Below are positions 32 through 20,751 of a stretch of 33,912 bases of DNA, piece after piece. The stretch covers positions 1 through 33,912 of the forward strand of contig CAMBAN010000021.1 in assembly GCA_945864145.1 (NCBI GenBank). The letters run 5' to 3'. The stretch is from an uncultured Lachnospiraceae bacterium. Its GTDB lineage: Bacteria > Bacillota > Clostridia > Lachnospirales > Lachnospiraceae. How positions within the stretch are numbered: position 1 is the stretch's first letter; each line of letters starts with the position of its first letter. The notes under the pieces were generated by a model. The model worked only from the letters and a program-made list of their open reading frames with translations, did no database searches and was not told where the DNA came from. The position numbers and the translations under genes are program-made.

Positions 32-628
32 CTAACCCTTCGGATCAGTGACAACATAAGACGAGTGCATCTGCATCAGGTTTGGTTTCACAAAAAAGCG
101 AGTCTTGCCGGAACCAGAGCCACCAATAACAAGAATATTTTTATTTCTTGCGTACTTCGGCTCTTTCGGTCTGCCGGACATCATCAGCCGTTCCGTCTGT
201 GTCAGAAGGACATTATTTTCAAACACAGAGTCCATATATGGCTCTATGTCCTTGGCATTTCCCCATCTTGCCGAACCGTATTCTACGCCCTGCCGGAACT
301 TCTTGGCATTCTTGGCTTTGTAATACACCACAAGGCGGAGCACTATGCCACCTGCCACACCAATCAGTAAATCTCTTGGGTGGAAGCTGGGCAAAGGATT
401 GGCAAACAGCTTATCAAAACGGTTCATGACTGCCATCATCTTATCAGAAGCATTTGTACCTTCTGATACTCTCCACAGCCATGCAACCTTATCACAGAAA
501 TATCCAACAAAGATATAGGGCAGATTCAAAAGCACCAGCTTCTTGGTATCCATACCGCCGGCTTTTGCTTTCAGATTTTTCGGGATAGCCTTCAGGTCTT
601 TGGTTATGCCTTCAATGATGTTACTCAA
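32..628 (-). pseudogene. VirD4/TraG-type type IV coupling protein, C-terminally truncated
   Basis: This is the N-terminal third of a conjugation coupling ATPase, which normally passes the relaxase-DNA complex to the type IV secretion channel at the inner membrane. Two hydrophobic segments (about residues 31-48 and 83-103) are the membrane anchor. A Walker A motif GGSGSGKT lies at residues 169-176, and the family motif VVTDPKG follows. The frame then ends at TAG after 198 residues, whereas family members run to roughly 600 with Walker B and the all-alpha domain. The start is TTG and overlaps the pcfB stop by four bases (TTGA), which indicates translational coupling. The loss could come from an insertion, a frameshift or a local rearrangement. 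Only 31 bases remain to the left, so the cause cannot be seen. A product of this length could not work as an ATPase. Confidence 0.85.
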
Positions 629-1101
629 AGGCTCTGCCCCCTGTCCTTATTCTTTTCCCGGCTCCGTTCTCTGTTCTTATTCTGTGATACTGCATCCCTG
701 AAGCGTTTCAGTTTCTCCCTTACGGAAGTCCTGCCCTTTCGTTTCTCATTACCATAAACAAATTCCTTGAATGCCTGTGCTACCGCATCGGCATCCCTGC
801 CCTTGAAAAATACCACATATTTCGGTGGGTCCGTTGTCTTGTCTTTCTTGACGGCGAAATCAACATTATATTTACGAGCTACCCGCTCAAAGGATTTGAT
901 ATTGCCGTCCGTCACTTCGATAGACGAAACTCCCACGCCTTCGCCAACCAGCTTTTTCACAGAAGTTTTACCATGCGTTTTCTGTGCTTTCTGTCTGCGG
1001 TGGTTCAGATACATCCGCATTGCAGCCTTCAAGACGTTGGCATCCAGTTTAGCGGTCTTAATTACAAGAGCGATTGTTTTCTGCGTTACTTCCTCTTGCA
1101 T
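625..1101 (-). CDS. PcfB family protein (DUF3801)
   Basis: A basic soluble protein of 158 residues. It matches the PcfB/DUF3801 family found immediately before virD4/traG in Tn1549-like elements and conjugative plasmids such as pCF10. PcfB is thought to help load the relaxosome on the coupling protein. The N-terminal half carries the typical lysine-rich helix around residues 25-55, and the C-terminal 40 residues are very rich in Arg and Lys, suiting nucleic acid contact. The ATG start has a good ribosome site (CGGAGG, five bases away). The stop overlaps the TTG start of the coupling protein. Family assignment is from recognition of sequence and position. Confidence 0.8.
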   Translation of the reverse strand: MQEEVTQKTIALVIKTAKLDANVLKAAMRMYLNHRRQKAQKTHGKTSVKKLVGEGVGVSSIEVTDGNIKSFERVARKYNVDFAVKKDKTTDPPKYVVFFKGRDADAVAQAFKEFVYGNEKRKGRTSVREKLKRFRDAVSQNKNRERSREKNKDRGQSL

Positions 1102-1140
1102 AAGTACCTCCGATCTGCATTTCCATGTGCGTATGCTCCG

Positions 1141-1179
1141 CTAAGGTGGAACATACAGCCGATGTAATAAATACCTCAT
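1141..1179 (-). CDS. 12-codon ORF in the pcfB leader
   Basis: A short frame encoding MRYLLHRLYVPP follows an AGGAGAG ribosome site, which sits only about four bases from the ATG. It lies between a terminator/palindrome module and the separate ribosome site of pcfB. In the second copy of the module (near 3.7 kb) the same ribosome site serves a full-length gene. This ORF may therefore be a leader peptide for pcfB, or a fortuitous frame left where a gene once started. Nothing in the peptide suggests a function. Confidence 0.3.
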   Translation of the reverse strand: MRYLLHRLYVPP

Positions 1180-1193
1180 AACTCTCCTTTCTG

Positions 1194-1216
1194 CTTCTGG
1201 ACATCGTGTCCAAAAG
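1194..1216. repeat. 23-bp palindrome, copy 1
   Basis: On the minus strand the arms are CTTTTGGACA and TGTCCAGAAG around a CGA centre, with one mismatch between arms. The same palindrome recurs at 3715-3737 and, with small changes, at 4590-4612. It lies just after a terminator and just before a ribosome site. It could be a protein operator, a partition (parS-like) site for the element's ParB, or an RNA hairpin in the leader. Confidence 0.75.
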
Positions 1217-1220
1217 CAAT

Positions 1221-1260
1221 AAAAAAGGGCAGCTATAAATCTCTCGACTTATAACTGCCC
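1221..1260 (-). terminator. Intrinsic terminator after the cargo operon
   Basis: Read on the minus strand, the arms at 1249-1260 and 1227-1238 form a 12-position stem (GGGCAG core, one mismatch). Six T residues follow at 1226-1221. It lies 27 bases after the last cargo gene and separates it from pcfB. Confidence 0.85.
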
Positions 1261-1286
1261 TGACGCTGTTAACTTAATATTATCTA

Positions 1287-2153
1287 TTACTCATACTCTT
1301 TCCTTGAAAGAGCTTTATTTAAACATTCCACTATTATGATGACAAAATTTCTAAAAAAATTAATTTTATGTGGCTTACATATAATAATATTGCCTACTGG
1401 ATTATTAAAAAAATCGTCATCATCATCTTCTTCATCATCATAATAAAAAGTTACTAACTCCATTATCATGCTCTTCGAATCCATAATACAAGAAATCTCA
1501 TGTGCATAATTTTGTAATAACTTATCCATATTTTTTTTAAATCGTTCTGTCAGTCGTCCTCCAGCATGCATATATACATTCCTGATTTCTGTATAATATT
1601 CCCATACGAATTTAACTTCATTTTCTTTTGTAAGTATCTCATTTGTACATTGTGAAATCAATTTTATATAATCATCTACTATTTCTTTTTCTCTCAATAT
1701 ATCAAAGAATTGTATCATCATTTTTCTTTCTTTAAATTTAGCCATATCAAAATCACAGCTTGACAAAAAATCTTTTATTGTCTGCTCACACACAGCATAT
1801 AACTGCATAAATTCATTTGCTTGCAAATACCATTTCAAAGGATCAACTTTCATATTGTTTAAATCACTAAACAATGATATATCCAAACCCCTTTCTTCAT
1901 GACTACTCATTTGTAAACTTGGGTCATAAATCCCCATACCTATGCTATAAACAGCATTTCTTTGTATTTCAAATCCATCCAAAATCAAATTATCAACCAA
2001 TAACTTTCGTTCTTCATCTCCTAAAGAATCTAAAAGCTCATTCATAATTATATCATTGATTTGTATCATACTATATTGTTTGTAAAATGCTTCATAAAAG
2101 TCTTTGCATTTTTCGTTTGGCTTCAATGGGCTAAATGTTGGAATCATCATCAT
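1287..2153 (-). CDS. HEPN-like protein, last gene of the ICE cargo operon
   Basis: No named family is recognised. The 288-residue protein is mostly helical and AT-rich in codon use compared with the conjugation genes. Residues 191-196 read RNVYMH inside a predicted helix. This matches the RNxxxH catalytic signature of HEPN ribonucleases, which are common in toxin-antitoxin, abortive infection and CRISPR effectors. An acidic run (DDEEDDDDD, about 239-247) sits near the C-terminus. The preceding gene ends 50 bases upstream and also encodes a HEPN-like motif. The function is inferred to be RNA cleavage in defence or addiction, on the motif and the mobile-element context only. The ATG follows GGTGG at six bases and a GAGAGGA farther up, and two more in-frame ATGs follow directly. 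Confidence 0.7.
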   Translation of the reverse strand: MMMIPTFSPLKPNEKCKDFYEAFYKQYSMIQINDIIMNELLDSLGDEERKLLVDNLILDGFEIQRNAVYSIGMGIYDPSLQMSSHEERGLDISLFSDLNNMKVDPLKWYLQANEFMQLYAVCEQTIKDFLSSCDFDMAKFKERKMMIQFFDILREKEIVDDYIKLISQCTNEILTKENEVKFVWEYYTEIRNVYMHAGGRLTERFKKNMDKLLQNYAHEISCIMDSKSMIMELVTFYYDDEEDDDDDFFNNPVGNIIICKPHKINFFRNFVIIIVECLNKALSRKEYE

Positions 2154-2203
2154 TTGTTTCCACCGTCCTCTCTAACATTTGTTGAAATCTATCATGTAAT
2201 CTT

Positions 2204-3025
2204 TTACATAAATGCCATAGGTGAAGGATCTACTGCTGTATTCAAAAATTCTAGCAGTTTCTGAATATATGGGAATAAAATATCATCGTCAAAATGTATT
2301 AATTCATTTATTCCTTGTTCCAATCCCACTATCTTTTGAACATCTCGAATATCAGATGGATACTCTTCTTTATTTATCAAAAGCCGCATAGCTTTTCCTC
2401 CACGAAATTCTTCAATTTCTCTATACGCTGGCTTTCCTTTATGTTTTATATAATTGTATAGGTTTCTTATATCGCTTTTCGAAAAATCCTTCCAAAAATC
2501 AGCAATTAAATCGACTGCAAGAGAAAATTCTGGCACCATTTTTTTCAGATATGCAAATGGATTTCCTTCAGCATGAGGTGTAGAAACACCATTTTCAGTT
2601 TTTCGCAATAAATCATATGCTTCTTCGATTGGGTGCATACAACTAACATCTTCTGCATTAGTCACATTTCCGTCTTTGTCGAAAGAATATAAAACATATT
2701 CCGCAGAAACATATGTAATTGTCCATGATAAATCTACCAAAATATTATAGTTCAACAATGCCGTTTCATACAAATTTGACTTAAAAATTAATTCCACAGC
2801 TTTTTGCACATCAGGCTTATCAATTCTATTAAACCAATAATCCCAGTCTTCTTCTTGTGTCTTTCTCAAAAAAATTCTTGCTGTACTGTATCTTTCAAAC
2901 AGTTCATTCCACTTTGATGCAAAATATATGTCTTGATTAGTTGGAAGTGAAGTTCCCTCCTTTATTATAGCTCCATGTGGTGGCTCCAACGTTCCAAATA
3001 TTTCATTTTTAAACATATCTTTCAT
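2204..3025 (-). CDS. HEPN-like protein, middle gene of the ICE cargo operon
   Basis: A 273-residue helical protein with no family I can name. Residues 187-195 read RNLYNYIKH, combining an RN-x6-H pattern with an N-x2-KH pattern. Both are seen in HEPN-superfamily proteins of the Cthe_2314/MAE-like kind. The ATG at 3025 was chosen over an in-frame TTG at 3037 because GGGGGA lies just upstream of it. The gene begins 18 bases after the 216-residue gene ends, with the second HEPN-like gene 50 bases downstream, so all three are probably one transcript. Base composition is more AT-rich than the element backbone, suggesting separate acquisition. The pair could form a heteromeric ribonuclease or an effector/inhibitor couple, which is inference. 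Confidence 0.7.
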   Translation of the reverse strand: MKDMFKNEIFGTLEPPHGAIIKEGTSLPTNQDIYFASKWNELFERYSTARIFLRKTQEEDWDYWFNRIDKPDVQKAVELIFKSNLYETALLNYNILVDLSWTITYVSAEYVLYSFDKDGNVTNAEDVSCMHPIEEAYDLLRKTENGVSTPHAEGNPFAYLKKMVPEFSLAVDLIADFWKDFSKSDIRNLYNYIKHKGKPAYREIEEFRGGKAMRLLINKEEYPSDIRDVQKIVGLEQGINELIHFDDDILFPYIQKLLEFLNTAVDPSPMAFM

Positions 3026-3043
3026 AGAATCCCCCAATTCTAG

Positions 3044-3694
3044 TTATGATAAAATACTTATTGTATGCAGCTCAACATATATTTTATCATATTCTGTTTT
3101 TATATCATCAAATAACAGTGCTTGAAACAAAACCGCCCCTACATTCTCCAGCCTTACCATTCTATACTCTTTTTCTGTAAGCCCTTCAATCTGCATCCCC
3201 TGTATGGCAGCCTCTTTTCTTGCCACCAGACAATGCGTATATAATGCCATGATATACTTATCCGACATAGGAAAGGCGTATGTTTCGTTCCCTTGATATG
3301 TATATCGGCACTTTTCCAGATTTTCTTGCGGTATATCGAAATAACATCTGACCGTTTCCAGATATACATCTCCATCATACTGCGGCTTTAGCTTCTTTGC
3401 ATACCTTCTGATTGTTGCAAATATATTATTTCTTTCCATAGCTGTCTTTGTTCGCTTAAATACAGTCTTTTTTCCACGCAAGTCCATATAAACATTATTT
3501 AGAATCGTCTTTCCGGCGTACTGCTTGAAATCACCTATCCGCAACAAATACGATAACACCTCTAGCAATTTCTCTTTTGATGTTATCTCCTGATACGAAT
3601 AATCTCCAAATTCAATATGATCCAGTTTCAAAGGGCAACTCCCCTTCGCTATCTCACGCTCCATTACCCTGTTAATATCTCTCATTGATTCCAT
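3044..3694 (-). CDS. Unknown protein, first gene of the ICE cargo operon
   Basis: A 216-residue soluble protein with no recognised family. It has a basic central section (GKKTVFKRTKTAMERNN, about residues 73-90) and a mixed alpha/beta look. There is no signal peptide or membrane segment. The ATG has a good site (AAGGAGAG, eight bases away) supplied by the terminator/palindrome module directly upstream. It starts a likely three-gene operon with the two HEPN-like genes. A role as regulator, specificity subunit or antidote is possible, but nothing in the sequence decides this. Confidence 0.65.
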   Translation of the reverse strand: MESMRDINRVMEREIAKGSCPLKLDHIEFGDYSYQEITSKEKLLEVLSYLLRIGDFKQYAGKTILNNVYMDLRGKKTVFKRTKTAMERNNIFATIRRYAKKLKPQYDGDVYLETVRCYFDIPQENLEKCRYTYQGNETYAFPMSDKYIMALYTHCLVARKEAAIQGMQIEGLTEKEYRMVRLENVGAVLFQALLFDDIKTEYDKIYVELHTISILS

Positions 3695-3714
3695 CTATAT
3701 ATCTCTCCTTCCCG

Positions 3715-3737
3715 CTTCTGGACATCGTGTCCAAAAG
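3715..3737. repeat. 23-bp palindrome, copy 2
   Basis: Identical in all 23 bases to copy 1 at 1194-1216. It again lies between a terminator and a ribosome site, here in front of the 216-residue cargo gene. The surrounding 90 or so bases (about 3705-3795) align with 1184-1275 as one repeated junction module. Confidence 0.75.
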
Positions 3738-3740
3738 CAC

Positions 3741-3775
3741 AAAAAAGCAGCTACAAGTATTTCACTCATAACTGC
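3741..3775 (-). terminator. Intrinsic terminator before the cargo operon
   Basis: On the minus strand, arms at 3764-3775 and 3747-3758 pair over 12 positions when G-U pairs are allowed. A run of six T follows at 3746-3741. It lies just after the 120-residue ICE gene and is homologous to the terminator at 1221-1260. Confidence 0.8.
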
Positions 3776-3793
3776 TCTAACGCTGTTAGCTGA

Positions 3794-4156
3794 TTATTCT
3801 ATTCCTGCCGTTTTTGCAAATCCGGCTTTTCTATTCATAAGTTCCTCTTGTTTCTCCTTTGGCAGACACCGGAATATCTCATTATATCCCATTCCTGCCA
3901 TTGGTGTTCCTTTTGCCAGAAGAAAAAGCTGCGTGTCAAACCATTCCTCCCACAAGTTCTCAAACATGCTCCGGCTGTCCGTAAAGGTTATTGCATCTTC
4001 AAAACCCTCTGGCGGTCTATAATACTGTAACTTAACAAATCCGTATCTTCCCGCATCCACGACAAGTATATTCTCAATCTCATACAGCTCTGCAAAAGCA
4101 TCTGCAACTTTTCTGCATTTCTCCCTTTCATCGTCTGTAATGTATATTTCTTTCAC
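3794..4156 (-). CDS. Small ICE-associated hypothetical protein
   Basis: A 120-residue soluble acidic protein of a kind often seen in Tn1549-like elements; I cannot give it a family name. It contains several aromatic residues and no membrane segment. It starts with GTG, preceded by AGGAGG at ten bases. It is followed by the repeated terminator module, so it is probably transcribed alone or as the end of a short unit. Its start lies about 170 bases from the divergent HTH gene, so that regulator may act on the shared intergenic region. Confidence 0.7.
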   Translation of the reverse strand: MKEIYITDDEREKCRKVADAFAELYEIENILVVDAGRYGFVKLQYYRPPEGFEDAITFTDSRSMFENLWEEWFDTQLFLLAKGTPMAGMGYNEIFRCLPKEKQEELMNRKAGFAKTAGIE

Positions 4157-4253
4157 AATTAACCATCCTCCTGTTTCAAAACCACACTACCTGCATCTAT
4201 ATCCTCAATCTCCAGAAATAAACCATTATTGTCTTTACCATTTGCATATTATG

Positions 4254-4271
4254 TGGTGCTTACACGCACCA
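4254..4271. promoter_or_regulatory. Inverted repeat in a divergent intergenic region
   Basis: TGGTGC and GCACCA form a perfect 6-bp inverted repeat around a six-base spacer, about 55 bases upstream of the HTH gene and in an AT-rich region (TATTAT nearby). Small phage-type repressors usually bind such dyads, so this is a plausible autoregulatory operator. No convincing -35 element was found. Confidence 0.4.
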
Positions 4272-4325
4272 TATTATTATAAGTTCCCTGCCATTAAAAT
4301 ACAAGGTAGGAAAGGAGTTGCCTGT

Positions 4326-4532
4326 ATGATTAAATACGATCCACTTTGGCAAACGCTTAAGGCTAAGAACATCAGTCAGTACCAGCTCATTAAAGATTAT
4401 GGCATTGACAAAGCACAGCTTCAGCGGCTCCGGCAAAATATGGTAGTAAAGACCATTATTCTGAACAGGCTATGTCAGATACTTGACTGCCGGATTGAAG
4501 ATATTATGGAATATGTTCCAGATGACAAGTAG
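4326..4532 (+). CDS. Small Cro/CI-type HTH regulator
   Basis: A 68-residue protein of the XRE helix-turn-helix superfamily, the only plus-strand gene in the mobile element part. The HTH covers about residues 10-60: ISQYQLIKDYGIDKAQLQRL is the helix-turn-helix core, and the ending ILDCRIEDIMEYVPDD is the typical last helix of this group. The ATG at 4326 was chosen because AAAGGAG lies eight bases upstream; the open frame extends farther left without a better start. Proteins of this type commonly act as element repressors or in decisions on excision. The inverted repeat at 4254-4271 could be its target. Confidence 0.85.
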   Translation: MIKYDPLWQTLKAKNISQYQLIKDYGIDKAQLQRLRQNMVVKTIILNRLCQILDCRIEDIMEYVPDDK

Positions 4533-4584
4533 AGGTATTGTTTATGATTGATTGACAATGCCTTTTTTGTTGCTCTTTTTTCTT

Positions 4585-4914
4585 TTACACCTTTGGACAT
4601 TGTGTCCAGAAGTGTCCTGCTATTACTTTTATTATCTCCGTAATTATAACAATAATCCTCACAAGAACAATAATACCACCAATCAGACCTCCAACGATAC
4701 AATTCAGTGCCAGTATTCCCATACTTCCTGCAATTCCAAAATTCTTCGGCACAAGAAACATACACATTTTTCTGATACCATAGGGACATCCTACCAAAAT
4801 CCAATAAAGGAAATAATCAAACCCATCTGCTTTATCGCAAACCGGATAACAGGTAATCATCCACAGAACAAGAACGCATACCGGAATAATTATTTTAAAC
4901 AATGCCTTTTTCAT
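4585..4914 (-). CDS. DUF6050-like small membrane protein
   Basis: A 109-residue membrane protein with two or three hydrophobic segments: about residues 5-22, a middle stretch, and a long IVGGLIGGIIVLVRIIVII segment near the C-terminus. It resembles the DUF6050 family of ICE-encoded membrane proteins, assigned by recall. The start was placed at MKKALF (4914) because GGAGGTG lies just upstream; this start is inside the end of the initiator gene, with a 20-base overlap, so the two are translationally coupled. The third copy of the 23-bp palindrome overlaps its last codons. Function unknown. Confidence 0.65.
   Translation of the reverse strand: MKKALFKIIIPVCVLVLWMITCYPVCDKADGFDYFLYWILVGCPYGIRKMCMFLVPKNFGIAGSMGILALNCIVGGLIGGIIVLVRIIVIITEIIKVIAGHFWTQCPKV
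4590..4612. repeat. 23-bp palindrome, copy 3
   Basis: Arms CCTTTGGACA and TGTCCAGAAG around TTG on the plus strand. It is a close variant of copies 1 and 2, but here it covers the stop codon end of a coding gene rather than a leader. That argues that the DNA or RNA dyad itself, not a fixed place in a leader, is what is conserved. Confidence 0.65.
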
Positions 4915-5965
4915 GCCAGCCACCTCCATACATATCATGTTGCACTTCCTGCTGATAATAATGATTCATCGTTGAGGGTGCATTATAAAGAGCAGTAACC
5001 ATATATGCCTTGATATTGGTTATTTTCGTATTTGTATCATGCATACAGCCAATCACATACTCCAGATGTCCACTATTCAGCTTCAGGAATTTAGATTTTA
5101 CAAGCTCATAAGGATAATCCTCGCCTGCAATCCGGATCGTTGTACGTTTTACACATACAACCTCACAGATAACCTCAAAAAGCTCCTCATACAAAGCCTT
5201 GTTCTGCCAGTCATCATACTTCATGTGATGCTCATATTCGATGTTATCCTTAATCAGTTCTATGTATGCATTGACATCATCCATCACATCAGTCCTGTCT
5301 GGATTATCTTCACTACCAGATTGATTGATTGGATTGATATAATTTATATCATTATGACTCTGGTTGTTATAGTTAGTATTGTTATAATTAGGGGCAAAAT
5401 CGTTTACTTCTTGAGGTTCAGTTTCTTTACTTTCAGAAGTCAAATTTCTTTCCCTCTTGAGGTCAGATTCCTTTACCTCTTGAAGTTCAATTTTTTTACT
5501 TCCAGAAGTTAAATTCTTTTGCTTCTTGAAGTTAAAATCTTTTACTTCTGTGGAAACATCAGGGTTTGAAGGCTCTTTTTCTTCTTTTTCATCCGGAACG
5601 GAAGCAAAATTTTTCACATAAATGATGTCCGGTTTGCCAAGACCTCTCCGTTTCTTCTCAATCAATCCGATGCCATTGTCAGAATCCAGCTCACGCATAA
5701 TTTTTGTGCAAGTGGGTTTGGAACATCCCAAATCTTCCATAATGGCATCCACTGTGTAGATGATGTATGCCCGGTTTTCATCATCCAGCCATCCGTTTTT
5801 CATGGATAATGACATTCTGTCAAGCATCAGTCCATAGAGGAGCTTAGCATCACTGCTAAGCCCCTTAAATCTCTCGTCTTTAATCAAAAATCGGGGAACA
5901 CGATAAAAAGAGAACTGCTCTGCTTCAATTCCGTAGTAATAATCAAAGTTTATTGTATCGCCCAC
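4895..5965 (-). CDS. RepA_N-type replication initiator (with DUF6017-like C-terminus)
   Basis: A 356-residue initiator protein. The N-terminal 110 or so residues match the RepA_N winged-helix domain: FYRVPRFLIKDERFKGLSSD, then KLLYGLMLDRMSLS, and a second helix pair around GCSKPTCTKIMREL. The middle (about residues 135-215) is low in complexity with a 23-residue repeat and an Asn/Tyr-rich stretch. The C-terminal 120 residues look like the DUF6017 domain seen in ICE initiators. In RepA_N plasmids the origin lies in the central part of the gene itself, and this gene carries iteron-like repeats there. It follows parB by 15 bases, giving a replication/partition module that could maintain the excised circle. 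Confidence 0.85.
   Translation of the reverse strand: MGDTINFDYYYGIEAEQFSFYRVPRFLIKDERFKGLSSDAKLLYGLMLDRMSLSMKNGWLDDENRAYIIYTVDAIMEDLGCSKPTCTKIMRELDSDNGIGLIEKKRRGLGKPDIIYVKNFASVPDEKEEKEPSNPDVSTEVKDFNFKKQKNLTSGSKKIELQEVKESDLKRERNLTSESKETEPQEVNDFAPNYNNTNYNNQSHNDINYINPINQSGSEDNPDRTDVMDDVNAYIELIKDNIEYEHHMKYDDWQNKALYEELFEVICEVVCVKRTTIRIAGEDYPYELVKSKFLKLNSGHLEYVIGCMHDTNTKITNIKAYMVTALYNAPSTMNHYYQQEVQHDMYGGGWHEKGIV
5336..5392. other. AT-rich stretch beside the repeats, candidate unwinding element
   Basis: A very AT-rich stretch inside the initiator gene, encoding an Asn/Tyr/Ile-rich segment. It directly abuts the 23-bp repeats. Together they have the usual layout of an iteron origin: binding sites plus an easily melted region. 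This is inference from layout only. Confidence 0.4.
5388..5548. repeat. Seven degenerate 23-bp tandem repeats (candidate iterons)
   Basis: Units start at 5388, 5411, 5434, 5457, 5480, 5503 and 5526. On the plus strand most begin TTGAAGTT, TTGAGGT or CAGAAGT, run through a T-rich centre, and end in ACTTC, CCCTC or ACCTC. The first unit is the most decayed (17 of 23 bases match the last). Because 23 is not a multiple of three, the encoded protein repeats every 69 bases (23 residues). Constant length with DNA-level likeness across three frames suggests selection on DNA, as expected for initiator binding sites. Confidence 0.75.
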
Positions 5966-5980
5966 TTTACCGTGCCTCCT

Positions 5981-6874
5981 TTACTGCTTATTCGTCGCCT
6001 TTCCGGTGTTCCATTCTTCCAATAGCTGATAGATAATATTTTCTATATCTTCACTGGAATAATCCTCCGTAAAATATCTGCTGATTTTATCAGCTTTGAT
6101 TGTAACTTTTCTTTCCTTTGGCTTTTCCTCCGTCAATATCAGTCTTACCATTGGCAGAGTCAGCTCGCCGTTTTTCCCATATTCCTTTAACTTTGATGAT
6201 TGGGTAGTCGAGATAGCTGCACCCGTTTCTTCAAGAATGACCTGCACCCATTCCTGTGCCTGCTCTGTCAGAAAAGATATGTCAACACCCTGTACCAGAC
6301 CGATTTTTTTCTTATCAACCATATCCAGCAATTCATCTGACAAACGTGCAAGCCATATATAACGCTGAACCGTCTTGCCACTCTCTCCGGCTGCTTCTCC
6401 CACTTCATCAAGACTGCTTCCATTTCCTTTTTTGCCCTGATGCTTCATGGCTTCATACTTCATGGAATAGGCTTTTGCCTTTTCACTTGGGAGAATATCT
6501 TCCCTCTGGATATTAGTATCTACCATAATCACCGTAGCTTCATCATCATTGTAATCTCTGATAAACATAGGCATGGTGGAAAGACCTGCAAGCTCACAGC
6601 CATGTTTTCTGCGGTGTCCGGCGATTATCTCATAACCACCCTCTGCCCTCGGTCTTGCAATACCGGGCATAAGCACACCATAGTTTCTGATGCTCTCCAC
6701 TGTCTCCTGCATCTTTTCATCATCCAGCACCTTAAAAGGGTGTCCTCTGAACTCATAAAGCTCTGAAAGCGGTATCTCCTGCACCTGATCGGTGACTGCT
6801 GTCATATCAGAAACACCGAATAAATCATCAAAACTGTTTAGCTTTACCTTTGCCGCACTTCCTGCCTTACTCAT
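5981..6874 (-). CDS. ParB-like partition protein
   Basis: A 297-residue ParB/Spo0J-family protein. The N-terminal domain has the CTPase/nuclease-fold signatures YEIIAGHRRKHGCELAG (GHRR box) and TNIQREDILPSEKAKAY. An HTH follows (EVGEAAGESGKTVQRYIWLA), then a variable C-terminus. It should bind a centromere site and work with ParA to keep the excised or replicating element in daughter cells. The ATG at 6874 is preferred over TTG at 6880 because AGGAGG lies nine bases before the ATG and only three before the TTG. It overlaps the end of parA. The 23-bp palindromes in this element are candidate binding sites. Confidence 0.88.
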   Translation of the reverse strand: MSKAGSAAKVKLNSFDDLFGVSDMTAVTDQVQEIPLSELYEFRGHPFKVLDDEKMQETVESIRNYGVLMPGIARPRAEGGYEIIAGHRRKHGCELAGLSTMPMFIRDYNDDEATVIMVDTNIQREDILPSEKAKAYSMKYEAMKHQGKKGNGSSLDEVGEAAGESGKTVQRYIWLARLSDELLDMVDKKKIGLVQGVDISFLTEQAQEWVQVILEETGAAISTTQSSKLKEYGKNGELTLPMVRLILTEEKPKERKVTIKADKISRYFTEDYSSEDIENIIYQLLEEWNTGKATNKQ

Positions 6875-7649
6875 TGCCAAGCACCTCCTCCGTCAAAGAC
6901 TGATAGGCACTTGCTACTTTTCCCTTTGGGTCATGCTGATAGATGCTGACGCCCTCTGCCGAAATCTCGGCAGCTCTTACGGAAATCGGAATACTATTCT
7001 CAAATATCCTTACTTTGCTTCCATAATTCTCAATCAGTAATGCACTGATGTCCTTTGCATAATTTGTTCTGCTGTCAACCATGGTCAGCAAAATACCCTC
7101 AATGGACAGCTTCGGATTTATCTGACGCTTCACCTTACCAATCGTCTTAATAAGCTGTTCCAGACCTTTCACTGGCAGATATGCCGCCTGTACCGGGATT
7201 AAGATACTATCCGCACAGGCAAATGCATTTATGGTTATCATGCCAAGTGAAGGCATACAGTCAATCAGGATATAATCATATCTTTCTTTCACCTGCTCTA
7301 TGTAGGAACGCATCACAAGCTCTCTGCTCATGACATTTACCAAGGATACCTCCAGACCGGATAATTCGATATTGCCCGGCATAAGGTCAATTCCTTCCTC
7401 ATGCCTTAAAATACCGTAATCATCTTCCATTTCCACATCATTGATGATATTTGCCATCACAGTCGCAAGTGTTTCCTCCAGCTTGTCCGGCTCTGTAAAT
7501 CCTAGACTTGCAGTCAAGCTACCCTGTGCATCGGCATCTATCAGCAGAACTCTCTTTCCCTGCTTTGCTAATCCTATTCCCAAATTACTTGTTGTGGTGG
7601 TCTTTCCGACTCCACCTTTCTGATTTGCGATTGCTATAACTCTACACAT
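6867..7649 (-). CDS. ParA family partition ATPase
   Basis: A 260-residue Soj/ParA-type ATPase. The deviant Walker A QKGGVGKTTTT is at residues 9-19, the A' motif LLIDADAQGS at about 35-44, and the Walker B-type LIDCMPSLG near 127-135. There is no N-terminal HTH, so it is of the small Soj-like kind. It forms dynamic nucleoid-bound patterns and moves ParB-DNA complexes. Its last codons contain the ribosome site of parB, so the pair is coupled. Confidence 0.93.
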   Translation of the reverse strand: MCRVIAIANQKGGVGKTTTTSNLGIGLAKQGKRVLLIDADAQGSLTASLGFTEPDKLEETLATVMANIINDVEMEDDYGILRHEEGIDLMPGNIELSGLEVSLVNVMSRELVMRSYIEQVKERYDYILIDCMPSLGMITINAFACADSILIPVQAAYLPVKGLEQLIKTIGKVKRQINPKLSIEGILLTMVDSRTNYAKDISALLIENYGSKVRIFENSIPISVRAAEISAEGVSIYQHDPKGKVASAYQSLTEEVLGNE

Positions 7650-15003: not shown

Positions 15004-16188
15004 TTACAGACTTGGGCAACTTGAAACTGCGGTTCGGATACGCTTTAATGCCTCCTCTAAGGTTTTTCTCGGACAGGCGATGTTGATACGCTCAAAGCCC
15101 TCGCCCTCAGGTCCGAAAATATCCCCTTCATCCAGCCATAATCCTGCTTTTTCTTCAATCAGCGTATGTAATGCTTCCTTAGTGAGTCCTAATGCTCTGA
15201 AATCCAGCCAGATTAAGTAAGTTCCCTCCGGCTCGATGAGCGTTATCTGTGGCAGCTCTTTTTTCAGATACTCTCTCAAAAAATCCAGATTTTCCTTTAA
15301 ATATACCTTTAACTGCTTTAACCATTCCTCTCCATAAGTATATGCCGCCTTACAGGCTACAATACCGGGCAATCCTACCTGACTATAGCCTGCCTGTGCT
15401 ACTGCTCTCTCAAACTGTTTTCTTAATTCTTCGTTTGGTATAAAAATGTTGGAAATCTGGAGCCCCGCCAAATTAAAGCTTTTACTTGGTGAAGTGCAAA
15501 GAATGGAAATCTGTTCAAATTCCTTTTTAATGCTTGCAAATACCGTATGGGCAAAGCCTGGAAATGTAAAATCACAATGTATTTCATCGCTTACCACAAG
15601 CACATGATTTCTGACACATATGTCACCTATTTTGGTTAACTCCTCCTTTGTCCATACTCTGCCAACCGGATTGTGAGGATTACAAAGTAAAAACAGTTTC
15701 GTTTTCTTTTCTACAATTTGTCTTTCAAAATCCTCAAAGTCAATTTCATAGTGTCCATTTTTTAATACTAAGGAATTTACCGCCACTTTTCTGTCGTTTA
15801 CTTCAATCGTCTCTCTAAAAGGATAGTAAACAGGTGACTGGATAAGTACGTAATCTCCTTTTTTCGTATAAGCCCTGATGGCCTGTGCGATGGCAAATAC
15901 GACACCCGGTGTCTTTACCAGCCATTCCTCCTTTAATGAATATTGATGCTTTTGTAAAAACCATTTCTGAATTGCTTCAAAGTAATCCTTTTTACTTTCA
16001 CTATATCCATAAATGCCGTGTTTCACACTTTTTTCTAACGCTTCTATAATTTCAGGGGCAACCATGAAGTCCATATCTGCTACCCAAAGTGGTAAGATGT
16101 TTTCGTCTCTTCCTCTTTCCACTGCAAAATCATATTTTAACGAATTAGTATTTTTACGATTAATAATGGTATCAAATTGTGAACTCAT
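15004..16188 (-). CDS. PLP-dependent C-S lyase, MalY/PatB family
   Basis: A 394-residue fold-type I PLP enzyme of the MalY/PatB group. These cleave cystathionine or cysteine (beta-elimination), giving homocysteine or sulfide. NPHNPVGRVW, SDEIHCDF (PLP-ring Asp) and SPSKSFNLAGLQ (Schiff-base Lys) are all present. It has a good ribosome site, GGAGGC, seven bases from ATG. Being last in the amidohydrolase-metN-metI-metQ unit ties it to sulfur amino acid use. In principle it could also be a histidinol-phosphate-type aminotransferase, but the motifs favour a C-S lyase. Confidence 0.9.
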   Translation of the reverse strand: MSSQFDTIINRKNTNSLKYDFAVERGRDENILPLWVADMDFMVAPEIIEALEKSVKHGIYGYSESKKDYFEAIQKWFLQKHQYSLKEEWLVKTPGVVFAIAQAIRAYTKKGDYVLIQSPVYYPFRETIEVNDRKVAVNSLVLKNGHYEIDFEDFERQIVEKKTKLFLLCNPHNPVGRVWTKEELTKIGDICVRNHVLVVSDEIHCDFTFPGFAHTVFASIKKEFEQISILCTSPSKSFNLAGLQISNIFIPNEELRKQFERAVAQAGYSQVGLPGIVACKAAYTYGEEWLKQLKVYLKENLDFLREYLKKELPQITLIEPEGTYLIWLDFRALGLTKEALHTLIEEKAGLWLDEGDIFGPEGEGFERINIACPRKTLEEALKRIRTAVSSCPSL

Positions 16189-16215: not shown

Positions 16216-17043
16216 TTACTGCAATTCTCCAGGAATGTACCATAATCCGTCATTATTTTCTGCAATATAGTCCTTAAATTCCTGAGAATGATATGCATCT
16301 ACAATGGCTTTTGCCCATTCACTGTCTTTGTTTTCTTCCTTTACTACGACCTGTAACAGTAAGTGTTCTGCCACATCCTCCTGTAATAAAGCAGTGGATG
16401 CATCAATACCTGCGTTGTAAACGATACTTCCTGTAATGACTGCAAAATCAAATTCATCCAAAGACCTTGGAATAATGGAGGAGTCTAACTCTGTAAATAC
16501 GATATCATAAGGATTTTCAACGATATCATCCTGTGACAGAGTAGAGATGTCTGCATCCTGATTTAAGGATATCCAACCTGCTTTTTCCAATAAGCGATAG
16601 GCTCTTGCTGTGTTGGAAGCATCATTGGGAACTGCTACCTTTGCCCCTTGTGCAATTTCTTCTATTGAAGTATGGTTTGCTGAGAAAATGCCTGCCGGTA
16701 CTGTAGGGATTGGAGAAAGTGCAACCAAATCGCCGTCCTGTGTATTGTTGAAGTTTTTCAAATAAGCGGTATGCTGTTCCACATTGACATCAATGTCACC
16801 TTCATTTAAAGCTGTATCATTTTGTAATAAATCTGAAAACTCTACGCAGGTAAATGTGTAACCCTCTTTTTCTAATATCGGTATAATTGCGTCTTCAAAT
16901 AATACTGTATAAGGGCCTGCTGCCTTTCCATAGGTAATATTTTTATCATCTGCTGCCTTTGCCTGGCTTGCATTTGAGCATCCTGTTGCTCCAAGTGCTA
17001 CTGTTGTAATAAGTGCTAATCCTGTAATAATTTTCTTAAACAT
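16216..17043 (-). CDS. metQ: Methionine ABC transporter substrate-binding lipoprotein
   Basis: A 275-residue NlpA/MetQ-family lipoprotein. A signal peptide ends in a lipobox, ALGATGCS, with the lipidated Cys near residue 22. The body has VEFSDLLQNDTALNEGDIDVNVEQHTAYL and VAVPNDASNTARAYRLLEKAGWI, both typical of the family. It binds methionine (or its oxide or D-form) outside the membrane and delivers it to MetI/MetN. The start at 17043 was chosen for GGAGG at eight bases; an earlier in-frame codon adds six residues that include the ribosome site. It lies 28 bases after metI. Confidence 0.95.
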   Translation of the reverse strand: MFKKIITGLALITTVALGATGCSNASQAKAADDKNITYGKAAGPYTVLFEDAIIPILEKEGYTFTCVEFSDLLQNDTALNEGDIDVNVEQHTAYLKNFNNTQDGDLVALSPIPTVPAGIFSANHTSIEEIAQGAKVAVPNDASNTARAYRLLEKAGWISLNQDADISTLSQDDIVENPYDIVFTELDSSIIPRSLDEFDFAVITGSIVYNAGIDASTALLQEDVAEHLLLQVVVKEENKDSEWAKAIVDAYHSQEFKDYIAENNDGLWYIPGELQ

Positions 17044-17071
17044 AATTTTTTCCTCCTGCATTTAAAATCAT

Positions 17072-17746
17072 CTATTGATGTGTTCTTAATTTTTTAGCAA
17101 TGGCATTTCCAATGCCCTGTATAAGCTGTACGAATAAAATTAAAATAATAACTGTTGCAAGCATTAATGCATTGTTAAATTTCTGATAGCCGTAGGTCAG
17201 TGCCAAATCTCCGATTCCGCCGCCTCCGATAGTACCTGCCATTGCTGTCGCACCAAGTAAACCAATACTTCCTGTTGTCAGTGCCAGTACCAGAGATGCC
17301 TTTGCCTCCGGAATTAAAAAGTAACGAATAATTTCAAAGGTCGATGCCCCCATTGCCTTTGCCGCCTCAATGATACCCGGTTTTACCTCTAAAAGAGAGC
17401 TCTCAATCAATCTTGCAAGATAAGGTGCTATGTAAAAAACAAGTGGTACAATTGCTGCCTTTGTTCCAATTCTTGTTCCTACCAGAAATTTGGTAAAGGG
17501 TGCAATAAATACTAATAAAATGATAAAAGGAACTGACCTTACTAAATTGACAATACCGTTTGTAATAAAATAAATGACCTGATTGCTTTTGATTCCTCCT
17601 TTTCTTGTCAGTACTAAAGTGAGTCCTAGTGGAATCCCAAGTAAAGTGCCAAAGAAAAGGGACCAGCCAAGCATATAAATAGTCTGTATGCCCGATTCTA
17701 TCAGTTTTTCTGCGCTAATGTCCAAAATTGTTTCAATCATGTGCAA
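17072..17746 (-). CDS. metI: Methionine ABC transporter permease
   Basis: A 224-residue integral membrane permease with five or six membrane helices. The cytoplasmic EAA loop is EAAKAMGASTFEIIRYFLIPEA, which docks on MetN. ATAMAGTIGGGGIGDLA follows, as is usual in MetI. Either TTG at 17746 (better spaced from AAAGGA) or ATG at 17740 may start it. Both overlap the end of metN, which points to coupled translation. Confidence 0.95.
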   Translation of the reverse strand: MHMIETILDISAEKLIESGIQTIYMLGWSLFFGTLLGIPLGLTLVLTRKGGIKSNQVIYFITNGIVNLVRSVPFIILLVFIAPFTKFLVGTRIGTKAAIVPLVFYIAPYLARLIESSLLEVKPGIIEAAKAMGASTFEIIRYFLIPEAKASLVLALTTGSIGLLGATAMAGTIGGGGIGDLALTYGYQKFNNALMLATVIILILFVQLIQGIGNAIAKKLRTHQ

Positions 17747-18755
17747 TCACTATCCTTTCTACCTCTACATCCTGTGTCTGTAGGAAACTGTATGCTCTGT
17801 CTGTTTCTGCTTTCTCTCCCTGTAGCTGTAATATGATGATACCAAGTATCGTGCCCTGCAATTCATTCACTGAGGCAAATAGAATGGTCGTATTTACATC
17901 AAATTCTTTATTGATTTTTGACACCAGTGCCTGTGTAGCATTTTCTCCAAAAAAGGTGAGCTTTACGACCGGTGCGTCCGGATGAATCTGTTCTACAATG
18001 GTTTCCGGAATTTCACTGTTAATGACCGTTCTTACAAAGTCCTTTGTCATTGCTTCCTGTGGTTTGCTGAATACCTTTATGGTTTCCCCCTGCTCAATGA
18101 CCTTACCTTCTTTCATAACAGCTACTTTATTGCATATTTTTTTGATAACATTCATTTCATGGGTGATCAATAAAATGGTAATGCCAAGCTCTTTATTGAT
18201 TTTCTGTAAAAGCTGTAAAATTGACTCTGTAGTCTTTGGGTCTAAGGCACTGGTTGCCTCGTCACAAAGTAAAATTTTAGGGTTGGTAGCAAGTGCTCTT
18301 GCAATACCGATTCTTTGCTTTTGCCCTCCGGAAAGCTGTGATACATATACATCACTCTTGTTTTCCAGCTCTACAAAGGATAAAAGCTCCTGTACTCTTT
18401 TGTTTATGACACTCTTGTCAGAATGTTCCAATAACAGTGGTATGGCAATGTTGTGAAATACCGTCTGATTTTCTAACAGATTGAACTGCTGAAATACCAT
18501 GCCGATTTCTTTTCGCTGTTTTCTAAGCTCCTTTTCATTTAAAGCAGAAAGGTCTACCCCATCGATAAATACTTTTCCTGTGTCTGGTGTTTCCAATCTG
18601 TTTACTAATCTGATTAAAGTAGATTTTCCTGCCCCGGAATAACCAATTACTCCAAAGATATCTCCCTTTTCTACCTCTAAGGAAACATGGTCCAATGCGT
18701 GTACTGCACCGTTTTTTGTCTGAAAGACCTTGTCTGCCTCTTGAATTTTTATCAT
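17733..18755 (-). CDS. metN: Methionine ABC transporter ATP-binding protein
   Basis: A 340-residue ATPase. Walker A GYSGAGKST is near residue 38, signature LSGGQKQR near 140, Walker B ILLCDEATSALD near 160 and the switch His in LITHEM. The C-terminal 75 residues are the NIL/ACT-like domain found in MetN, which in homologues binds methionine and inhibits transport when the cell is replete. GGAG lies eight bases before ATG. It is the second gene of the operon, 34 bases after the amidohydrolase. Confidence 0.96.
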   Translation of the reverse strand: MIKIQEADKVFQTKNGAVHALDHVSLEVEKGDIFGVIGYSGAGKSTLIRLVNRLETPDTGKVFIDGVDLSALNEKELRKQRKEIGMVFQQFNLLENQTVFHNIAIPLLLEHSDKSVINKRVQELLSFVELENKSDVYVSQLSGGQKQRIGIARALATNPKILLCDEATSALDPKTTESILQLLQKINKELGITILLITHEMNVIKKICNKVAVMKEGKVIEQGETIKVFSKPQEAMTKDFVRTVINSEIPETIVEQIHPDAPVVKLTFFGENATQALVSKINKEFDVNTTILFASVNELQGTILGIIILQLQGEKAETDRAYSFLQTQDVEVERIVIAHD

Positions 18756-18789: not shown

Positions 18790-19929
18790 CTACTTTATTC
18801 TTGCTGCTGCCTGTATACCAAGCTCTGCTACATACTCTGCCGCAATGGAAAGTGCTGCCGGATCAACTTCAAATTTGGGATGATGATTCGGGTAAGTTTC
18901 TCCTGTTCCAATCTGTATAAAGCTGCCCTTGATTGTCTGCTGATAGAATGCAAAATCTTCACCACCAAGACTTGGATATGGCTTTTCGATTCCCAAGCCC
19001 TGTTTTCTTGCGATTTCTCTTGCAAATTCTGTCCATTCCGGGTCATTATCTGTTGCAGGCGGTCCTGCAATCCAGATAACCTCTGCCTCCACTCCGTAAG
19101 CTTTACCAATAAACTCTGTCTGTTCTCTGATTCGTTTTTCAATGTAAGCTCTTGTTTTTGGGGAAAGTGTTCTTACAGTTCCCTCTAAAAAGGCTGTTTC
19201 CGGAATAACATTCCAGGTATTTCCTGCTTCTAAATGGGTAACACTTATCACTGCCGGGTCAAAAGGATTGATATTTCTGCTGACTATGGTCTGTAAACCG
19301 TTTATCAGTGCTGTTGCTGCAATGATTGGATCCTTTCCTGCATCCGGATGTGCACCATGTGTGCCAAATCCCTTTATCTTTATCTGGAAGGTATCCACAG
19401 CTGCGGTTATATTCCCTTCTGTTATCCCCAAAGTTCCGACCGGGAACTGGGAAGAACTGTGGATTCCAAAAATGACATCTACGTCATCTAATGCTTTTGC
19501 TTCAATCACCTTTAAAGCTCCTAAGGAAGATTCCTCCGCCGGTTGAAACAGTAGCTTTATCGTTCCCTTGATTTCCTTTTGTCTTTCCTTTAATAAAAGG
19601 GCTGTTCCATAAATTGCTGTGGTATGGAAATCGTGTCCACATGCATGCATTTTATTTGGTGTTTGTGATTTCCAGGGAAGTGTCGTTTCTTCCTGAATTG
19701 GCAATGCATCAATATCACTTCTAAGTGCAACCACCGGACCTTTTTCCTCTCCTCTTATCACGGCAACCACTCCGGTTTCTAATGGTGCATCCAGGATTTC
19801 TATATCATGTGCTTTTAAAAGCTCCTTTATTTTTTTTGTTGTTTCATATTCCTCATAAGATAACTCCGGGTGTGAATGAAACCATTGAAACTGTTCCTCT
19901 AATTCTTTTTGTAATCTATCTCTACTCAT
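18790..19929 (-). CDS. M20-family N-acyl-amino acid amidohydrolase
   Basis: A 379-residue binuclear-metal hydrolase of the M20D (hippurate hydrolase/IAA-amino acid hydrolase-like) group. Ligand motifs seen are MHACGHDFHTTA (Cys/His/Asp), LFQPAEESSLGA (catalytic Glu pair), GIHSSSQFPVG and the C-terminal SLGGEDFAFY. It removes acyl groups from N-acylated amino acids. Lying first in a methionine transport and C-S lyase operon, it probably releases methionine or cysteine (or related thiols) from N-acyl forms, which is inference. AAAGG precedes the ATG by about eight bases. Expression should depend on the attenuator directly upstream. Confidence 0.9.
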   Translation of the reverse strand: MSRDRLQKELEEQFQWFHSHPELSYEEYETTKKIKELLKAHDIEILDAPLETGVVAVIRGEEKGPVVALRSDIDALPIQEETTLPWKSQTPNKMHACGHDFHTTAIYGTALLLKERQKEIKGTIKLLFQPAEESSLGALKVIEAKALDDVDVIFGIHSSSQFPVGTLGITEGNITAAVDTFQIKIKGFGTHGAHPDAGKDPIIAATALINGLQTIVSRNINPFDPAVISVTHLEAGNTWNVIPETAFLEGTVRTLSPKTRAYIEKRIREQTEFIGKAYGVEAEVIWIAGPPATDNDPEWTEFAREIARKQGLGIEKPYPSLGGEDFAFYQQTIKGSFIQIGTGETYPNHHPKFEVDPAALSIAAEYVAELGIQAAARIK

Positions 19930-19953: not shown

Positions 19954-19984
19954 AAAAAAAGAGATGTATGCTCACATACATCTC
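19954..19984 (-). terminator. Attenuator terminator in the leader of the methionine operon
   Basis: On the minus strand GAGATGTATG (19984-19975) and CATACATCTC (19970-19961) form a perfect 10-bp stem with a 4-base loop. Seven T follow. It lies between the Met/Cys-rich leader ORF and the amidohydrolase start, so it can only act on read-through into the operon. The AGATGT of its 5' arm recurs in the leader ORF, and its complement ACATCT also occurs there. Confidence 0.9.
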
Positions 19985-20014
19985 AGACTCTTTGCAAACT
20001 TATTTGTTTTACAA

Positions 20015-20155
20015 TTATCTTCTATCCGGATATTTGTCAACATGAAAAACATCTATATGGTTTTTTAACATACAGTCACACATCATGCACATAGTGCACA
20101 TCATATTCATTTCCATAGATGTTCTTCTTGTGTTAAATGTGTTTGCTGTTCTCAT
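20015..20155 (-). CDS. Methionine/cysteine-rich leader peptide
   Basis: A 46-codon ORF with ATG, an upstream AGAGG site nine bases away, and TAA. Residues 14-29 read MEMNMMCTMCMMCDCM: eight Met and four Cys in sixteen. It sits after a good promoter and 30 bases before a perfect intrinsic terminator, ahead of the amidohydrolase-metNIQ-patB operon. This is the classic layout of amino acid attenuation, in which a ribosome stalling at scarce codons changes RNA folding. Within the RNA, ACAUCUAU (near codons 12-14) can pair with AUAGAUGU (codons 33-36), enclosing the Met/Cys run. The same ACAUCU can pair with AGAUGU in the terminator arm. No S-box or T-box core was found here. Translation and control are inferred, not shown. 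Confidence 0.85.
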   Translation of the reverse strand: MRTANTFNTRRTSMEMNMMCTMCMMCDCMLKNHIDVFHVDKYPDRR

Positions 20156-20220
20156 GTTTCGTTTCCTCTCTTTCCCGAAAATCTTATTTCATATATTTCC
20201 TACATGATTAGTATGGTATT

Positions 20221-20249
20221 AATTTAACACTAAAATTTACCATTGTCAA
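20221..20249 (-). promoter_or_regulatory. Promoter of the methionine operon leader
   Basis: On the minus strand a perfect -35 TTGACA (20249-20244) and a -10 TAAATT (20226-20221) are 17 bases apart. Transcription would start about 60 bases before the leader peptide ATG. Confidence 0.75.
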
Positions 20250-20334: not shown

Positions 20335-20751
20335 ATGAAAGTGCTTGTAAGTGCCTGTTTATTGGGCGAAAACTGTAAATACAGCGGTGGAAATAATTAC
20401 AATGAAAAAATTGCAGAATTTGTAAAAGGTAAAGAAGTCATCCCTGTTTGTCCGGAAGTTGCAGGTGGTCTGCCAACTCCGCGTACACCGGCTGAAATTG
20501 TAAATGGTGTCGTTACGGCAAAGGACGGTAATGTTGTAGATAAGGAATTCCGTCTTGGTGCCAGACGCATTATAGAAAGTATTGACCCGAAAGAAATCGA
20601 ATTTGCCATTTTGCAGGCAAGAAGTCCTTCCTGCGGCAGCAAACACATCTATGATGGCACCTTTTCCGGGAAACTCATCGAAGGGCAAGGTGTCTTTGCA
20701 AAGGCACTATGTGACCTTGGTGTGAAAGTCATAGATTCAGAAGAATTATAA
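20335..20751 (+). CDS. DUF523 / TudS-family desulfurase
   Basis: A 138-residue protein of the DUF523 family, of which TudS (thiouracil desulfurase) is the characterised member. The three motif cysteines are present: ACLLGENC (C8), PVCPEVAGGLPTPR (C39) and SPSCGS (C100). In TudS these hold a [4Fe-4S] cluster used to remove sulfur from thiouracil. GGAGGG precedes the ATG at seven bases, and TATACT at 20293-20298 may be its -10. It is divergent from the methionine operon, which fits a link to sulfur use, though co-regulation is not shown. Confidence 0.88.
   Translation: MKVLVSACLLGENCKYSGGNNYNEKIAEFVKGKEVIPVCPEVAGGLPTPRTPAEIVNGVVTAKDGNVVDKEFRLGARRIIESIDPKEIEFAILQARSPSCGSKHIYDGTFSGKLIEGQGVFAKALCDLGVKVIDSEEL

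Follow-up and report, generated by a model that had tools for sequence, protein, structure and literature searches.

Background

Ribosome-mediated attenuators of the trp, his and leu type in enterobacteria combine a short translated leader, control codons, a terminator and a competing antiterminator. Polycysteine ORFs of mycobacteria were reportedly treated by Canestrari in 2020. Among the Firmicutes, published passages describe a Leu-rich attenuator peptide at the ilv-leu operon of Staphylococcus aureus (PMC5794164) and His leaders in Bacilli (PMC2965389). Cysteine leaders appear in passages on the cys operons of Mycobacterium and cbs of Bifidobacterium (PMC1262725) and, as uORFC-8-2, at cysS of Rhodobacterales (PMC8632094). 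The Met and Cys genes of Clostridium perfringens are placed under S-box and T-box RNAs, with cysteine T-boxes before cysKE and ubiGmccBA (passages in PMC2940859). No description of Met/Cys leader peptides in Clostridia was recognised in the literature searched, which was mostly open-access and was covered by title, abstract or passage.

The locus described here lies in a window, meaning the whole stretch of 33,912 nucleotides that was analysed, from an uncultured Lachnospiraceae bacterium. It is probably a ribosome-mediated transcription attenuator, one that gauges how much charged tRNA-Met and tRNA-Cys is available. On the best reading of the sequences compared, this attenuator would be one of a regulon in Lachnospiraceae and their neighbours. 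Comparative support is strong for the leader class, and support for the predicted switch is moderate.

Structure of the leader locus

All leader parts lie on the minus strand, in the 405-nt intergenic region that separates the start of the amidohydrolase (19929) from the divergent gene (20335). The preliminary description of this DNA placed a promoter, an ORF of 46 codons whose residues 14-29 include 8 Met and 4 Cys, and a perfect terminator ahead of an amidohydrolase-metNIQ-patB operon. The ORF is as described, and both the promoter-like site and the terminator are located on the minus strand. The features are as follows.

20221..20249, minus strand: promoter-like TTGACA-17-TAAATT (promoter scan)
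20197..20202, minus strand: TAGGAA element between the -10 and the leader (sequence)
20165..20170, minus strand: Shine-Dalgarno-like GAGAGG of the leader ORF (sequence)
20015..20155, minus strand: leader ORF, 46 codons, ATG start, Met/Cys-rich (sequence, predicted ORF)
20069..20116, minus strand: control-codon block, codons 14-29, 8 Met and 4 Cys (sequence and shuffles)
20113..20122, minus strand: region 1 core ACAUCUAUGG, before/at the first control codon (in the pre-block:post-block duplex)
20039..20060, minus strand: region 2 CCAUAUAGAUGUUUUUCAUGUU, 3' of the control codons (folding)
20023..20037, minus strand: putative antiterminator 5' side ACAAAUAUCCGGAUA, codons 40-45 (pairs with 19989-19975)
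19975..19989, minus strand: putative antiterminator 3' side, including the terminator 5' arm at 19984-19975 (folding)
19954..19984, minus strand: intrinsic terminator, 10 perfect pairs and a U tract (terminator finder)
18790..19929, minus strand: M20 amidohydrolase, operon gene 1 (Pfam/NCBIfam)
17733..18755, minus strand: MetN-type ATPase with NIL domain (Pfam/NCBIfam)
17072..17746, minus strand: MetI-type permease (Pfam/NCBIfam)
16216..17061, minus strand: MetQ/NlpA lipoprotein (Pfam/NCBIfam)
15004..16188, minus strand: PatB family C-S lyase (Pfam/NCBIfam)

The terminator hairpin (19984-19961) has a 4-nt loop and a T7 tail and begins 30 nt 3' of the leader stop. It is the sole terminator in the region, and shuffles are expected to yield 0.0. 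Promoter-like matches in the scanned region are not above chance (3 versus 3.4 expected). The window ORF contains 12 Met and Cys in 16 residues, while the maximum in 5000 dinucleotide shuffles of the 405-nt region is 7 and no shuffle (0/5000) reaches 8 or more. Short ORFs outside long ORFs have at least 7 Met and Cys in 2 of 358 cases, both leader-like, in 59 other loci (172 kb) that are not a neutral sample, 29 having come from the peptide search and 30 from a Met-Cys-Cys-Cys codon pattern. The leader peptide of the window has no Pfam match.

The control codons appear to match the amino acids handled by the operon, with the substrate of MetNIQ assigned from its family. The divergent gene (20335-20751, plus strand) encodes a 2-thiouracil desulfurase (PF04463) family protein and is another sulfur-linked gene on the same intergenic region. 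Elsewhere in the window, positions 32-7649 (minus strand) contain genes resembling conjugation coupling, ParB-like and ParA-like proteins, their translations judged by eye. This region is probably an integrated or plasmid-like element.

Neither a T-box (RF00230) nor a SAM riboswitch (RF00162) is present in the window leader in the Rfam scan, and no Rfam family reaches its gathering threshold anywhere in the window. The absence of S-box and T-box RNAs given in the preliminary description is thus borne out for the window. The source genome contains a single SAM riboswitch, upstream of metK, together with 14 T-box matches, of which 11 exceed the cut-off, which indicates that the organism uses both systems elsewhere.

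Leaders at metNIQ and amidohydrolase loci

In a sequence search of 200 family genomes, the leader peptide finds only itself, and the remaining matches have E >= 0.01. The 29 loci taken from these weak matches contain no leader on scanning. The amidohydrolase has matches at E <= 1e-60 in 4 of 38 genomes of the genus, its own included, and the other three are just 40-41% identical. No close amidohydrolase occurs in the 37 further genomes of the genus, so near relatives of the locus are lacking.

Across the family, 11 of 397 genomes, again including its own, have the amidohydrolase at 1e-90 or better. The two nearest relatives (63% and 62% identity) are both preceded by a Met/Cys-rich ORF and then a terminator; the next two (53%) have no such ORF and terminator. 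One of the two nearest operons reads leader-M20-metNIQ-CGL. The other has CGL-patB, then leader-M20-metNIQ-NifS-like-TtcA-like, where NifS-like and TtcA-like are labels assigned in this analysis.

The comparison of metNIQ leaders across Lachnospiraceae suggested in the preliminary description extends to other genera. A MetQ-alignment scan of named genomes gives 19 loci, 12 with a Met/Cys-rich leader before the operon. Two of the 12 (L060 and L067) belong to the two nearest amidohydrolase genomes. Carriers include Hungatella sp. UBA5385, Thomasclavelia saccharogumia DSM 17460, Lacrimispora celerecrescens 152B, in which the leaders are Cys-rich, and Clostridium fessum. Since Thomasclavelia belongs to the Erysipelotrichia, more than one class is involved. 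The seven MetQ loci where no leader was found are L058, L062, for which the search covered 185 nt upstream of metN, and five Propionibacteriaceae records. L066, labelled Alistipes, has a clostridial-type operon and an S10-Clostridia leader; this bin is probably mislabelled.

Leaders before other sulfur genes

The same leader type occurs before cystathionine synthase/lyase type genes, O-acetylhomoserine sulfhydrylase (metY) and cysteine synthases (cysK), as well as before an amino-acid ABC system, an SsuC-like transporter and one CO-dehydrogenase-like gene. Among 30 CGL loci, drawn from 68 listed matches, the 11 from close relatives (>=65% identity) include 6 with a leader upstream, and the 19 from remoter ones (<=53%) include none. 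The six include the L198 leader, although an overlap filter removed it in one scan. At L200 the leader precedes the gene upstream of CGL. A weak candidate at L209 was rejected as lying inside a long ORF. Matches to cysK occur in 167 of 200 genomes; of the best 30 loci, 29 were parsed (L227 was left out), with a leader at 6 and none at 23.

The MCCCM pattern has 88 matches in 76 of 397 family genomes and its reversed control has 1, a contrast that is no evidence because most matches are other frames of longer genes. Nine matches were accepted as leaders on ribosome-binding site, length, downstream gene and terminator. Eight of them come from 87 loci, two of these repeating L068 and L060, and the ninth is L054. 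A class-wide pattern that includes a Shine-Dalgarno sequence gives 44 listed matches in 38 of 391 genomes, many of them in other frames, versus 3 for the reversed control. Thirty of these loci were scanned for short ORFs and contain two leaders, L187 and L172, which are outside the counts of 33 given below. L187, from outside the family, has its leader before a trans-sulfuration gene.

Two further loci have less usual downstream genes. In L172 (1486-1602), also from outside the family, a Cys-rich leader and terminator precede a nitrogenase component 1-like gene; as a guess, this is perhaps a reductase supplying sulfur for methionine. In L130 (1956-2078), a Met/Cys leader and terminator precede a gene resembling the CO-dehydrogenase catalytic subunit, with a match below the curated cut-off.

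S-box and T-box RNAs are absent from the leader loci scanned, a set that excludes L070, L172 and L187. They are also absent from 9 leaderless loci and from 20 leaderless cysK loci, so their absence alone does not mark leader loci.

Composition, terminators and promoters of 33 leaders

The 33 leaders were picked by Met/Cys content and downstream gene, and their Met/Cys bias therefore does not count as independent evidence. For most of them the choice made no use of terminator, pairing or Met:Cys ratio, the terminator having helped for the nine pattern-derived leaders. The peptide sequences are poorly conserved, yet Cys (15%) and Met (12%) are the dominant residues. The leaders have a median length of 38 codons, and the densest Met/Cys window is at codons 12-18. 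The downstream genes are sulfur or transport genes in all cases except L130.

A terminator follows the leader in 31 of 33 cases (25 by a first finder and 6 by a wider one), with a median of 29 nt (range 1-117) from leader stop to terminator start. In 20 rounds on shuffled sequences, the second finder averages 0.2 per 33 and never exceeds 2. The two leaders where neither finder sees a terminator, L240 and L244, are Cys-rich and precede cysK; they may work on translation.

The ratio Met/(Met+Cys) of the leader follows the pathway. It is 0.52 for metNIQ (n=12), 0.44 for CGL/CGS/metY (n=9), 0.27 for cysK (n=8) and 0.42 for others (n=4). The metNIQ and cysK groups differ at P = 0.0008 (Fisher) and P = 0.0006 (Mann-Whitney).

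Upstream of the leaders, TTGACA occurs in 24 of 33 cases versus 1.0 expected from mononucleotide shuffles, and TAGGAA in 15 of 33 versus 2.0 expected. Many of the 33 have CCTAT...ATAGGAA elements between promoter and leader, including the window at 20202-20197. TAGGAA and the longer form presumably resemble the CymR operator and are possibly part of a CymR-like site.

RNA pairing across the leaders

Six segments were defined in each leader: 5' UTR, pre-block, Met/Cys block, post-block ORF, gap, and the terminator 5' side extended by the preceding 12 nt. For all 15 segment pairs, the duplex energy of a leader's own segments was compared with that of cross-pairs between leaders in 20,000 permutations. 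In the 31-leader set, the post-block segment pairs specifically with the pre-block (P = 0.00005, the permutation floor), the Met/Cys block (P = 0.00025) and the terminator 5' side (P = 0.00075). Its pairing with the 5' UTR has P = 0.0066-0.014, varying with the L246 start used. Every segment pair below P 0.01 includes the post-block segment.

The three main post-block pairings persist in 25 leaders, with 8 similar ones dropped, and the terminator-side pairing has P = 0.0034 without L246, L240 and L244. An earlier run with 27 leaders also finds pre-block:post-block specific. In the 13 metNIQ-type leaders alone, this pairing again has P = 0.00005, and post-block:terminator side does not reach significance (P = 0.15). 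Against the bare terminator 5' arm, the post-block pairing has P = 0.06 in 22 leaders; with the 12 nt before the arm, P = 0.003. The terminator-side pairing is clearest in L150 and L198 (18 and 15 pairs). By raw count, 27 of 33 leaders have a best pre-block:post-block duplex that covers at least 5 bases of the Shine-Dalgarno/start region of the same leader.

These whole-set pairings suggest that the post-block segment is the exchangeable element, equivalent to region 2 of a trp-type attenuator. Given the permutation P values, the likelier wiring sets 1:2 (5' part with ORF 3' part) against 2:3 (ORF 3' part with terminator 5' side). The preliminary description proposed another wiring, in which the 5' of two segments bracketing the control codons would pair with the terminator arm. 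The two segments, ACAUCUAU (20122-20115) and AUAGAUGU (20056-20049), exist and can pair, and their helix is part of the 1:2 pairing. The pairing of the 5' segment with the terminator arm finds no such backing, with P = 0.14-0.17 for pre-block:terminator 5' side across 31 leaders. That wiring is dropped, the specific terminator-side pairing belonging to the post-block segment. The broader interpretation of a recurrent Met/Cys leader and terminator before a sulfur amino-acid operon stands. At the level of sequence, the ORF, its bias, the terminator, the recurrence before sulfur genes and the set-wide specificity of both pairings are demonstrated.

Pairing in the window leader

Taken by itself, the window leader gives the switch little structural support. 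Its pre-block:post-block duplex has an energy of -20.6 kcal/mol and ranks 7 of 27. The best duplex of post-block and terminator side (20037-20023 with 19989-19975) has -9.8 kcal/mol and ranks 12 of 31. Region 2 (20039..20060) has region 1 or the start-codon region 20158-20147 as partner. The 1:2 and 2:3 helices coexist in the ribosome-free fold, which suggests that in the window disruption of 2:3 by the ribosome may outweigh competition with region 1.

In truncated RNA, antiterminator pairing in the window stands at 0.79 until the A site reaches about codon 23, falls to 0.60-0.67 across about codons 24-31 and returns to 0.8 as far as about codon 36. It then drops to zero around codons 41-42 and finishes at 0.45-0.50. 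While the ribosome is early in the block, the helix joins 20037-20023 to 19989-19975; once the ribosome is further along the block, the best fold draws on 20059 onward instead. This modelled profile fits read-through on stalling and termination on advance into the 3' third. The antiterminator in truncated transcripts is above shuffles in 22 leaders combined (P = 0.004; window alone, P = 0.093). Averaged over the leaders, antiterminator pairing falls from 0.67 while the ribosome occupies the block to about 0.33 as it nears the stop, part of this drop being unavoidable because less RNA is left. When the full terminator is present, equilibrium folding forms it at 0.77 or above in 18 of 22 leaders, even if the ribosome sits in the block. 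Any switch must therefore be kinetic and act before the terminator 3' arm is made.

Proposed mechanism and alternative explanations

The proposed mechanism would require that the ORF is translated, that ribosomes stall in it and that antitermination responds to Met and Cys. When both amino acids are plentiful, the ribosome would pass the block into the 3' third of the ORF and mask the antiterminator segment, and the terminator at 19984-19961 would stop transcription. When Met or Cys is short, the ribosome would stall in codons 14-29 and leave the post-block segment free. This segment would then pair with the terminator 5' side, and the polymerase would continue into the amidohydrolase-metNIQ-patB operon. 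The 5' part, which takes in the ribosome-binding site, the start region and the codons up to about codon 14, would compete for the same 3' region.

A translated leader could also sense Met and Cys and act on translation, RNA decay or Rho access instead of through an intrinsic antiterminator, a mode of action proposed for actinobacterial cysteine leaders. The two leaders of 33 that lack a terminator would suit such an action, as would equilibrium folds that favour the terminator and a post-block:arm pairing that is not significant in metNIQ-type leaders alone. Cysteine leaders that lack terminators are also described in Mycobacterium (passages in PMC1262725). This alternative is nevertheless improbable, given an intrinsic terminator in 31 of 33 leaders and a post-block segment that, across the whole set, pairs specifically with the terminator 5' side.

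Motifs such as MMCCCMQM resemble metal ligands, and the ORF might encode a functional Met/Cys-rich small protein, metal-binding or modified, with its own terminator. Such a protein is hardly to be expected from a peptide that is poorly conserved and, in the window, unmatched in Pfam. It would also sit poorly with downstream genes for sulfur or transport in all but L130, a Met:Cys ratio that tracks the pathway, and an ORF 3' part constrained as RNA. Control of the operon by a CymR-kind repressor at the promoter, with no part for the leader, would account for the excess of TAGGAA (15 of 33 versus 2.0 expected). It would leave the Met/Cys bias, the terminators and the pairing unexplained, promoter and leader controls may coexist, and repression as the whole explanation is very improbable.

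Ribosome-mediated attenuation is the preferred reading for the window. A fuller version is more tentative and somewhat easier to doubt than to accept. It would comprise leaders of transporter, trans-sulfuration, cysK and metY genes behind a CymR-like operator, with Met:Cys tuned to the product and an ORF 3' end that alternates between closing the ribosome-binding site of its leader and opening the terminator. Such a layered switch would replace the cysteine T-boxes of Clostridium.

If true, leader peptides at the same kinds of gene in related bacteria would represent a swap of sensors, and 35 short ORFs (the 33, L172 and L187) would gain a role. Transcription and translation would also be coupled closely enough here for ribosome-mediated attenuation. 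Coupling that close is doubted for Bacillus subtilis.

Comparison with known systems

Like the trp, his and leu attenuators of enterobacteria, the locus has a short leader ORF, control codons, an intrinsic terminator and a candidate competing antiterminator. Unlike in these, Met and Cys control codons occur together, the predicted antiterminator segment is within the leader ORF, and the competing 5' partner often takes in the leader's own ribosome-binding site. The S. aureus ilv-leu and Bacilli His leaders share leader-peptide attenuation with a terminator in Firmicutes; in the passages on them, the amino acids and genes are different ones and include no clostridial sulfur operon.

Known cysteine leaders likewise have runs of Cys codons before cysteine-related genes, but they are from Actinobacteria or Alphaproteobacteria, and the passages describing them mention no Met. 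By the same passages, a conserved terminator is present at Rhodobacterales cysS and there is none in the Mycobacterium leaders. The cysteine T-boxes of C. perfringens, in the passages on them, read tRNA-Cys charging via premature termination, as is proposed here, at the same kinds of gene. Their RNA senses the tRNA with no leader ORF, whereas the leader loci scanned here are without a T-box. The class of mechanism is old; what appears new is the pair of amino acids, the bacterial group, the breadth, and the part played by the start region of the leader itself.
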